Positions 1 through 62,851 of a DNA stretch of 64,000 nucleotides are shown here, piece after piece. The stretch's first letter is position 1. Each line of letters opens with the position of its first letter. Source of the stretch: an uncultured Chloroflexota bacterium (GTDB taxonomy: Bacteria; Chloroflexota; Chloroflexia; Chloroflexales; Chloroflexaceae); contig CAKZKA010000061.1 in NCBI GenBank assembly GCA_937120965.1, positions 1 through 64,000 on the forward strand. Reading direction: 5' to 3'. The position numbers and the translations under genes were made by a program. The notes below the pieces were generated by a model, which was given only the letters and a program-made list of their open reading frames with translations, ran no database searches and had not been told where the DNA came from.

Positions 1-354
1 GCTGGAGACAACTCTCTGTTGTATCGTACCCCAGAATCGCCCTCATTGCAGAAGGTTTCCGCTCCTTTCGCAGGGGGCGCCGGGGGGGTGAGGACCAGCA
101 GCCCATCACGAAGCCATCCGCCACTAACCTGAAAATAGCCCGCGCGCGGGAGGGTTTGGGCGTAGAGGCGCGGCGCCGCCGCGCCTCTACGCCCTCCCAG
201 GAACCAACCCGCCAGCGGAGAGGGTTCGAGAGGGCGTAGCCCTCCCAGAAACAAGCCCCCAGCGGGGAGGGTTTGGGAGGGCATAGCTCTCCCAGGAAAA
301 ATCCATGTTCATCTTGTCGTTGTGCGGCGCAGCCACATGGATGGTATTGAGAAG

Positions 355-569
355 TACGTGTTCACATGTGGGGTAATACCAATTGGAATTGAACAGGCCG
401 CATTCGCACACTCACCAGCGCGCATTGCAACGCTATTGCGGCAATCTGCAATCCGAAATCTGCAATCTGAAATGGTATAAGGCGTCACCCCGGGTGCGCG
501 GGCGCCCTGCCCGCAATGGCCTGGATGCGGGCAAGCTGCCCGCGCACCCGGGAGACGTGTGAACACGTC
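355..569. repeat. Long inverted repeat copy 1, interrupted by a MITE-like insertion
   Basis: The ends TACGTGTTCACA and TGTGAACACGT face each other. Inside are the arms CCCGGGTGCGCGGGC and GCCCGCGCACCCGGG. Three intact relatives lie at 25498-25612, 30895-31010 and 42883-42992. Against those copies, this one has about 103 extra bases placed between ggggta and aggcgtcac. Confidence 0.75.
376..478. mobile_element. MITE-like element, copy 1 (filled site)
   Basis: A 103-bp segment begins ATACCAATT and ends AATGGTAT, so its termini are inverted. It has no coding capacity. It sits at a TA in the host repeat: related copies read ggggtaaggcgtcac without it, and here the flanks read gggg-TA-[element]-TA-aggcg. 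The reverse complement of its right half (ATACCATTTCAGATTGCAG...) aligns with the left half of the second copy at 52981-53084. A TA target is typical of IS630/Tc1-mariner-type movement. The transposase family is inference. Confidence 0.65.
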
Positions 570-25497: not shown

Positions 25498-25612
25498 CGT
25501 ACGTGTTCACAGTGGGGCAAGGCGTCACCCCGGGTGCGCGGGCATCTTGCCCGCATCCAGGCCATTGCGGGCCGGACGTCCGCGCACCCGGGAGCAGTGT
25601 GAACATGTACGC
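25498..25612. repeat. Long inverted repeat copy 2 (empty MITE site)
   Basis: Outer arms TACGTGTTCACA and TGTGAACATGTA; inner arms CCCGGGTGCGCGGGCA.. and ..CGCGCACCCGGG. It reads gtggggcaaggcgtcacc where copy 1 holds the MITE-like element. It lies between the adaptor and TetR genes. Confidence 0.75.
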
Positions 25613-30894: not shown

Positions 30895-31010
30895 CGTACG
30901 TGTTCACACTTCTCCTGGGAGCGCGGGCATCTTGCCCGCATCCAGCCCCTTGCGAGCGGGACGCCTGCGCTCCCGGGGTGACGCCTTACCCCACATGTGA
31001 ACACGCACGT
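30895..31010. repeat. Long inverted repeat copy 3
   Basis: Begins GTACGTGTTCACA and ends CACATGTGAACACGCACG. The inner arms are GGGAGCGCGGGCA and its partner CTGCGCTCCC, so both sides changed together relative to the other copies. A run of six T follows on the plus strand. In this copy the reverse complement reads ggggtaaggcgtcacc, an empty MITE site. Confidence 0.7.
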
Positions 31011-42882: not shown

Positions 42883-42992
42883 GTACGTGTTCACACCTTT
42901 CCCGGGTGCGCGGGTATCTTGCGCGCATCCAAGCCATTGCGGGCGGGACGCCCGCGCACCCCGGGTGACTTACCCCACATGTGAACACGTAC
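42883..42992. repeat. Long inverted repeat copy 4
   Basis: GTACGTGTTCACA at the left end and TGTGAACACGTAC at the right; inner arms CCCGGGTGCGCGGG and CCCGCGCACCCCGGG. Empty MITE site at about 42965-42975 (gtgacttacccc). It lies between the ygfZ and phosphatase genes. Confidence 0.72.
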
Positions 42993-46013: not shown

Positions 46014-46621
46014 GGTTGCTCCTCGTCAGTTGCCGCGCCGCGCAATAAAGAGGTTTTTTTTCTGAGAGGGCGCGGCACTCTCACATCTGAAAACAGGGGC
46101 ATCTCTGGGAGGGCCGCCCCCTCCCTGGCCCTCTCCCGCTGGGGGAGGGAACCGGGCGCCTCCCCGCAGGGAGGGGATTGGGGAAACCGGGTTTCCCCGT
46201 ATTTTCACCTCAGACGCCCATGCGCGGGGCGCACGACGCCAGAATGAAAATAGTATTGTTCTTGGGAGGGCTGCGCCCTCCCAAACCCTCCCCGCGGGCG
46301 GGCTCTGTTCACCTCAGAGTCAGACACACCTTGCGCATTCGTTTATTCGTTTCCCATTCGTTGGCCCATTTCCCCTCGGCGTCCCGGGAAGCCTATCCCG
46401 GAGCAGGTGAAACCTGTTGCAGGGCTGCGCCCTCCCAAACCCTCCCCGCGGGCGGGCTCTGTTCACCTCAGAGTCAGACACACCTTGCGCATTCGTTTAT
46501 TCGTTTCCCATTCGTTGGCCCATTTCCCCTCGGCGTCCCGGGAAGCCTATCCCGGAGCAGGTGAAACCTGTTGCAGGGCTGCGCCCTCCCAAACCCTCCC
46601 CGCGGGCGGGCTCTGTTCACG
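46014..46621. repeat. 608-bp repeat block between E1 alpha and E1 beta
   Basis: Palindrome GGGGAAACCGGGTTTCCCC at 46180-46198, GGGAGGGCcgccCCCTCCC type hairpin at about 46110-46128, and the 154-bp tandem array (46268-46620). No gene; the apparent ORFs across it repeat the same peptide and are translations of the array. Confidence 0.75.
46268..46620. repeat. 154-bp tandem duplication (2.3 units)
   Basis: Units begin gggctgcgccctcccaaacc at 46268, 46422 and 46576. The first two are complete and nearly or fully identical; the third breaks off after ctctgttcac. Each contains attcgtttattcgtttccc and cccgggaagcctatcccgg. The high identity implies recent duplication. Confidence 0.82.
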
Positions 46622-52465: not shown

Positions 52466-52981
52466 ATGAACGAAAACGCAGCCATCTTGATCGACCAGAT
52501 TACCATCCACCCGAGCGCGTATGTCTTCCCCAACACCTTTCTGGCCGGAACGATCACCATCGGCGCGGAAAGCAGCGTCTGGCCGATGAGCGTGCTGCGC
52601 GCCGACACCGTACCCATCCAGATCGGCGCCTGCTCAAATGTCCAGGACGGGTGTATTATCCATGGCGATCCGGGGTTTCCGGTGATTATCGGGGACTACG
52701 TGACCCTGGGCCACGGCGCCATCGTGCACGGCGCGGTGATCGAAGACGAAGTGCTGATCGGCATCGGCGCGGTCGTGCTGAATGGCGCGCGTATCGGACG
52801 GGGCTCGATTGTGGGCGCGCGCGCCCTGGTGACCGAAGGGATGCAGGTGCCACCGGGGTCGCTGGTGCTGGGCGTGCCGGGGAGCATCCGCCCCCTCAGC
52901 GCCGAGCAGGCGGCGCGCATTCGCGGGCCGGCGGAGCGCTATGTCGAGCGCAAGGAGTTGTACCGGCGTCGGGAGGCGTAA
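52466..52981 (+). CDS. Gamma-carbonic-anhydrase-like hexapeptide protein
   Basis: 171 residues with a left-handed beta-helix of hexapeptide repeats (TITIGAESSVWPMSVLRAD, VVLNGARIGRGSIVGARALV) and a C-terminal helix (EQAARIRGPAERYVERK). The three zinc-ligand histidines of gamma-class anhydrases are all present: His66 (IHGD), His83 and His88 (LGHGAIVHG), with Arg45, Asp47 and Gln60 around the site. Related proteins (YrdA, PaaY) have low or no anhydrase activity, so the reaction (CO2 hydration) is possible, not shown. The ATG is chosen from the start of the fold. Its stop codon TAA uses the first base of a MITE-like element. Confidence 0.88.
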   Translation: MNENAAILIDQITIHPSAYVFPNTFLAGTITIGAESSVWPMSVLRADTVPIQIGACSNVQDGCIIHGDPGFPVIIGDYVTLGHGAIVHGAVIEDEVLIGIGAVVLNGARIGRGSIVGARALVTEGMQVPPGSLVLGVPGSIRPLSAEQAARIRGPAERYVERKELYRRREA

Positions 52982-53084
52982 TACCATTTTTGGTTTTAGA
53001 TTTTGGATTGTGGATTGCCACACTGGGCAGCACAACGCCTGAAATCGCTTCAGGCAATGCGGCATCATCAACGGTAATTGGTAT
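52981..53084. mobile_element. MITE-like element, copy 2
   Basis: 104 bp, begins ATACCATTTTTGG and ends GTAATTGGTAT, flanked by TA on each side (gcg-TA-[element]-TA-AGGCG by the same reading as copy 1). Its left half aligns with the reverse complement of the right half of copy 1. The GTG of the uracil-DNA-glycosylase-like gene starts 9 nt later, so its right end may supply the upstream TATAAG box. Confidence 0.62.
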
Positions 53085-53092
53085 AAGGCGCA

Positions 53093-53842: not shown

Positions 53843-54166
53843 GATCCCGCCCGGGAGGGGCGTGGGGAAACCCGGTTTCCCCATATGTTCACGTCAGCCG
53901 TCCAAACCCTCCCGGTCGGGAGGGTTTGCCGCCCCCAGTGGCAGGGGGATGGGGAAACCTGGTTTCCCCATATGTTCACATCAGTCATCCATGCGGCTAC
54001 GCCGCACAACGACAAGATGAACATGGGTTTTTCTTGGGAGGGCTTCGCCCTCCCAAACCCTCCCCGCTGGCGGGTTGGTTCCTGGGAGGGCTTCGCCCTC
54101 CCAAACCCTCCCGCGGGCGGGCTATGTTCACCTCAGCCCGCCCGACAGGGGATATAATGAAGAACC
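53843..54166. repeat. Composite repeat gap before the HipA-like gene
   Basis: Palindromes GGGGAAACCCGGTTTCCCC at 53864-53882 and GGGGAAACCTGGTTTCCCC at 53951-53969. Each is followed by atatgttcacatcag-type linkers. The gcggctacgccgcacaacgacaagatg module is at 53991-54018, with GGGAGGGCttcGCCCTCCC at about 54036-54055 and 54085-54105. This is the clearest example of the repeat families arranged as one cassette. A TATAAT lies at 54153-54158. Confidence 0.72.
54153..54158 (+). promoter_or_regulatory. TATAAT box 8 nt before the HipA-like start
   Basis: gaTATAATgaagaaccATG. With a usual 6-8 nt distance to the transcript start, the RNA would begin at or next to the ATG at 54167, so a leaderless message is likely. 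A TTCACC at 54127-54132 is 20 nt further up, a poor -35. Confidence 0.45.
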
Positions 54167-62466: not shown

Positions 62467-62851
62467 TACCAGCCAGGGAGGGTGGTGGGGAAACCGGGTT
62501 TCCCCACCACCCAACCGCCGTTGGGAGCGGCTGGCACCCCACCGGCAGGGGGATGGGGAACCCCGGGTTCCCCGGCTGGTCACTGCAGGGAGGGGGATGG
62601 GGAAACCCGGTTTCCCCATTCCCCAACCGCCGTTGGGAGCGGCTGGCACCCCCCACCGGCAGGGGGATGGGGAACCCCGGGTTCCCCGGCTGGTCACTGC
62701 AGGGAGGGGGATGGGGAAACCCGGTTTCCCCATTCCCCAACCGCCGTTGGGAGCGGCTGGCACCCCCCACCGGCAGGGGGATGGGGAACCCCGGGTTCCC
62801 CATATTTTCACCTCAGGTTGTCAGGCTGCCACTGAACCGAAAGCACAGATT
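62467..62851. repeat. 114-bp tandem array of palindromes between hydantoinase and carbamoylase
   Basis: Palindromes alternate: GGGGAAACCGGGTTTCCCC (62487-62505, with flanking GGTGGT/ACCACC giving a 15-bp stem), GGGGAACCCCGGGTTCCCC (62555-62573), GGGGAAACCCGGTTTCCCC (62599-62617), then 62669-62687, 62713-62731 and 62783-62801. The unit, with accgccgttgggagcggctgg, repeats every 114 bp (112 for the first). ORFs across it repeat the same residues and are not genes. The last 50 bp carry the start signals of the next gene. Confidence 0.8.

Follow-up and report, generated by a model that had tools for sequence, protein, structure and literature searches.

Recurrent insertion of a MITE with three-base TNA target duplications in a Chloroflexaceae genome: an IS630-type element as the probable mover

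The window, by which we mean the whole 64,000-nt stretch of DNA analyzed (contig CAKZKA010000061.1 of an uncultured Chloroflexaceae bacterium), carries two copies of a MITE and a palindromic host repeat that occurs both with and without it:

354-569, plus strand: host palindromic repeat GTACGTGTTCACATGTGGGGTAAGGCG...GTGTGAACACGT, ~110 bp minus the MITE (profile versus spliced flanks, E 3.6e-33)
374-376, unstranded: left TAA of the target duplication of MITE copy 1 (from the copy 1 flank and the empty sites)
377-477, plus strand: MITE copy 1, 101 bp, ends TACCAATT...AAATGGTA
478-480, unstranded: right TAA of the target duplication of copy 1 (from the copy 1 flank)
25502-25609 (end approximate), plus strand: empty host repeat without the target, reading GGGGCAAGGCG
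30897-31005, minus strand: empty host repeat, target GGGGTAAGGCG intact
42884-42989, minus strand: empty host repeat, reading GGGGTAAGTCACC
52979-52981, plus strand: left TAA flanking MITE copy 2, doubling as the upstream gene's stop codon
52982-53083, minus strand: MITE copy 2, 102 bp, major subfamily, reversed relative to copy 1
53084-53086, unstranded: right TAA duplication of copy 2

A first-pass annotation of this DNA had described a 103-bp insert with ATACCA/TGGTAT ends and a second copy at 52981-53084. Both elements are present, but their true spans are slightly shorter (377-477 and 52982-53083), and at both copies the sequence doubled at the joint is TAA; a TA had first been reported for copy 1. 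The two ends of the element are asymmetric (TACCAATT-N4-TTGAACAtnCCGCAT versus TACCATTT plus 7-bp AATC repeats): copy 1 starts with TACCAATT and a TTGAACAggCCGCAT subterminal motif, and finishes with the heptamer-like AATCTGC/AATCCGA followed by AAATGGTA. Copy 2, which has an identical counterpart elsewhere in the genome (C306:6124-6227), lies within the upstream gene's stop codon, which the TAA duplication restores. As a test for a hairpin, predicted folding of copy 1 does not exceed that of shuffled sequences; for copy 2 the z values are -1.7 and -2.9, and the hairpin reading was set aside.

To place these copies in their genome, we used the bacterium's own assembly (5.18 Mb in 307 contigs), 1.92 Mb of which was examined base by base. 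The pattern TWATACCAWTT-N-TGGTATWA gave 111 forward matches versus 0 for the reversed control pattern, indicating that the insert pattern does not arise by chance, and a looser pattern gave 138. The 1.92 Mb contain 146 MITE copies in which neither 8-bp end has more than one mismatch; in 118 of these the ends are exact. The further copies that the first pass had suggested looking for thus number well over a hundred. Their terminal inverted repeats are TACCAWTT/AAWTGGTA, and their lengths (mode 102 bp) fall into classes of 88, 95 and 102 bp, set apart by a 7-bp repeat at one end. Clustering at 85% identity yields four groups (112, 19, 7 and 5 copies) and three singletons; copy 1 of the window belongs to the group of 5. 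Of the 146 copies, 83 have a relative at ≥99% identity, which points to recent movement; together with the recurrent insertions described below, this bears out the earlier claim that the element moves. The 103-base insert, earlier called MITE-like, is a MITE, a non-autonomous DNA transposon: it is short (∼100 bp, below transposase-coding size), multi-copy and bounded by short inverted ends, and its sites are found both filled and empty.

The target duplication was clear from the flanks. Identical 3-bp TNA triplets border 131 of the 146 copies (TTA 56, TAA 53, TCA 12, TGA 10) and a 4-bp match borders none, indicating that the duplicated target is TNA, not TA; three copies have unequal TNA flanks. 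The empty host repeats, which show a single TAA and contain the exact string GGGGTAAGGCG 23 times, confirm the TNA duplication. Around the triplet there is a palindromic preference, approximately GGnnTWAnnCC (one of the two flank tables retained about eight host-repeat sites). In 38 of 132 insertions the duplicated triplet terminates an open frame of 120 codons or more, compared with 128 of 1310 random TNA positions, a control not matched for coding versus intergenic position.

Elements with the same ends occur in related genomes; they are ∼1.1 kb long and encode IS630-family transposases. Among 43 relatives searched, one genome (G009) has an inverted pair of left-end patterns 1.17 kb apart, differing from the MITE end pattern by 1 and 2 mismatches; the pattern had 0 reversed-control matches in the 43 genomes. 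This IS comprises two ORFs that meet at an AAAAAAA run, one with the HTH part and one with the DDE part, and its transposase belongs to the IS630 family (NF033545, 126.7 bits against a cut-off of 100; PF13358, 82.5 bits). In another genome (G021), an IS of the same kind and 97-bp MITEs share the terminal TACCAATTTGCGTTTTG at 17/17 bp. Of 82 genomes from the order, 14 contain transposase homologues, and a search across 84,980 species genomes returned 80 loci, spanning cyanobacteria, Chloroflexota, Poribacteria, Desulfovibrio, Acetobacteraceae and others. At one of these (L261, 3001-3537), in Scytonema tolypothrichoides, the transposase is 83% identical to that of G009, reflecting either recent transfer between phyla or assembly contamination.

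We then asked what flanks these ISs. When TACC/TATC ends were paired irrespective of the bases flanking them, 49 pairs resulted, of which three are clearly mistaken. TNA lies on both sides of all 46 retained ISs (two of which are counted twice: L262=L185 and L266=L188), and the two triplets are identical in 29, versus 13.9 expected when right flanks were shuffled over all 49 pairs (p<5e-5). Thus these IS630-type elements depart from the 2-bp TA duplication of their family. Other IS630 elements of the same order, inspected by eye as a control, look TA-flanked. About 37% of the ISs carry an unequal N in their two TNAs, including the close ISs of G009 and G005, which may result from recombination between copies.

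Within the bacterium's own assembly, the homologue search (query P0001, E 1e-15) found no match. The sole PF13358 match is divergent and lacks MITE-like ends, no inverted end pairs 150-4000 bp apart were found in the part of the sequence examined at that stage, and the heptamer right end of the MITE was found on none of the ISs examined. The transposases at L050, L071 and L073 were rejected as movers, having no matching autonomous ends. An IS701-like element at C118:37819-39466 (L067) lies in or adjoining a MITE-like half; it was considered as an autonomous copy and discarded, since its transposase is IS701-like and it is bounded by ends of its own, CTACTTTGTCAGTT, with a TTAT duplication. The IS630/Tc1-type mover proposed in the first pass is therefore upheld indirectly, by the same-ended ISs of relatives, but not by an element in this assembly, where the mover was presumably an IS of this kind that has since been lost or has escaped assembly.

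The host repeat provides a second view of target choice. Its 110-bp profile matches 67 loci in the 1.92 Mb, and 17 MITEs cross it at essentially one place when spliced flanks are compared with the profile (one is offset by ∼2 bp). Two loci first scored as empty, C157:53 and C19:12005, turn out to carry a MITE end in this position, so the true filled count is ∼19. In the window, the copies that had been described as reading straight through the insertion point do so at 30895 (GGGGTAAGGCG) and 42883 (GGGGTAAGTCACC), but the one at 25498 (GGGGCAAGGCG) lacks the target. The insertion rate in the host repeat is ∼0.3 per site. Other insertions number 115 per 58,958 TNA triplets, 24 per 697 half-consensus sites and 14 per 155 full-consensus sites; by comparison of these consensus sites with all TNA triplets, plain target preference explains part of the host-repeat excess. 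A further contribution probably comes from the repeat lying between genes. The window also has exact tandem duplications composed of its palindromic repeats (154 bp at 46267-46574 and 114 bp at 62537-62764), and another palindromic family, TGGGGAAACCCGGTTTCCCC, often followed by a TGTTCACATCAG-like sequence, occupies at least 16 places in the window (for example, 53853-53904).

The two loci were also compared with those of related species. In the same-genus genomes G002 and G003, the copy-2 locus lacks a MITE and shows a TAA stop codon. In G004, the site orthologous to that of the intact, recent copy at 52982 has a degraded MITE-like sequence that lacks the TACC end and is fused to the stop codon (L221, junction near 1872-1986), so this position may have received two insertions or may predate the copy it now carries. 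The copy-1 locus in these three genomes contains neither repeat nor MITE. The MITE pattern is present in 11 of 61 genomes searched, the bacterium's own included, and G015 has 69 copies.

How did so many host repeats come to carry the insert at one point? The first-pass annotation had held that such shared inserts would mark ancestral structure. They do exist, in 17 copies, and the insert could accordingly be an old part of the long repeat, or repeat and MITE could have spread as a composite unit. One pair fits the latter: C10 and C208 have identical truncated hosts with the MITE in the same orientation, and probably represent one composite duplication. Apart from this pair, ancestral or composite origin is contradicted for most copies: the MITEs lie in both orientations (10 versus 7) and belong to at least four subfamilies, filled repeats are scattered in the host tree with their nearest host copies mostly empty, and the repeat-borne MITEs are mostly closest to MITEs outside the repeat. 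We conclude that the site was hit by repeated independent insertion, and regard common descent of the inserts as very improbable. The IS630/Tc1/mariner group is the textbook TA inserter. An IS630/Tc1 MITE with a 2-bp TA duplication, as first proposed, would agree with the transposase type, with the apparent TA flanks of the control elements and with the TA duplication made by ISY100 and IS630 (PMC2170065). Such a duplication predicts empty sites reading TNATATNA, but the observed ones read TNA, as GGGGTAAGGCG, and N is itself duplicated in the 131 copies, TGA and TCA among them. On these flanks and empty sites we rejected the TA parse, and regard this reading as very improbable.

The footprint by itself would also suit a different mover. 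The prokaryotic IS5/IS1031 group makes 3-bp TNA duplications, as does this MITE, and an IS5/IS1031-type (Tourist/PIF-like) transposase could in principle have moved it. We searched for such enzymes with PF01609 (DDE_Tnp_1), leaving out the IS5-specific PF13359, PF13586 and PF13340; the three matches in the assembly resemble IS701, an IS4-like element and an IS1182-like remnant, and none is bounded by matching ends. Moreover, all TACC-end ISs inspected encode IS630-type transposases, a set that was found with an IS630-type protein query. An IS5-type mover is thus unlikely.

Taken together, the sequence comparisons indicate that an uncommon branch of IS630-type transposases most probably moves the MITE. 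An IS630-like DDE transposase would recognize the TACCAWTT ends, cut and paste the element, and join its ends to the target at TNA with a 3-bp stagger, by preference inside GGnnTWAnnCC; gap repair would then duplicate the TNA. The host palindromic repeat offers a fitting site, GGGGTAAGGCG, and would therefore be hit repeatedly. While the biochemical steps are inferred, the element boundaries, the TNA duplication, the recurrence and the same-ended, TNA-flanked IS630-type ISs in relatives are direct observations, and we hold this reading with considerable confidence. We are inclined, with less assurance, to a broader proposal: that one bacterial IS630 branch of wide distribution (cyanobacteria, Chloroflexota, Poribacteria, Desulfovibrio and others) shifted its strand-transfer stagger from 2 to 3 bp, so producing TNA duplications, and supplies large families of MITEs for which a second palindromic repeat serves as the landing site.

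The main interest is that IS630 elements of one bacterial branch would leave a 3-bp TNA footprint. We found no report of such a group in the open literature, and we make only a moderate claim to novelty because the search did not extend to ISfinder. If the proposal is correct, comparison of close transposases could test what determines stagger length, and the case would caution that a TACC-end element may be misread as a TA inserter. A repeat with filled and empty copies in one genome also constitutes a natural assay of insertion preference.

It is instructive to compare this system with known ones. Like Tourist-like MITEs and the IS5/IS1031 group, it combines a 3-bp TNA/TWA duplication with short non-autonomous copies; unlike them, its associated transposase is of IS630 type, not IS5/PIF. 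The likely mover resembles IS630/Tc1-mariner (ITm) elements such as ISY100 in its DDE_3 transposase with an HTH N-terminal part, its size (∼1.1-1.2 kb) and its short, weak inverted ends starting with TA, but differs in the TNA rather than TA duplication, in the TACCAWTT ends and, in G009, in a transposase divided between two ORFs that adjoin at an A7 run. Departure of an ITm-type duplication from TA is shared with the Fot and Fot-like (pogo) elements, which duplicate TAA and TAAA (PMC7386202), and with Sailor, which duplicates TATA (PMC8533490); in contrast to these, N is free here (TAA, TTA, TCA, TGA) and the elements are bacterial. Finally, BrickBuilt of Porphyromonas gingivalis is likewise a MITE with an internal tandem repeat (PMC4596501), but its unit is 23 bp, whereas here a 7-bp unit at one end produces the 88-, 95- and 102-bp length classes.
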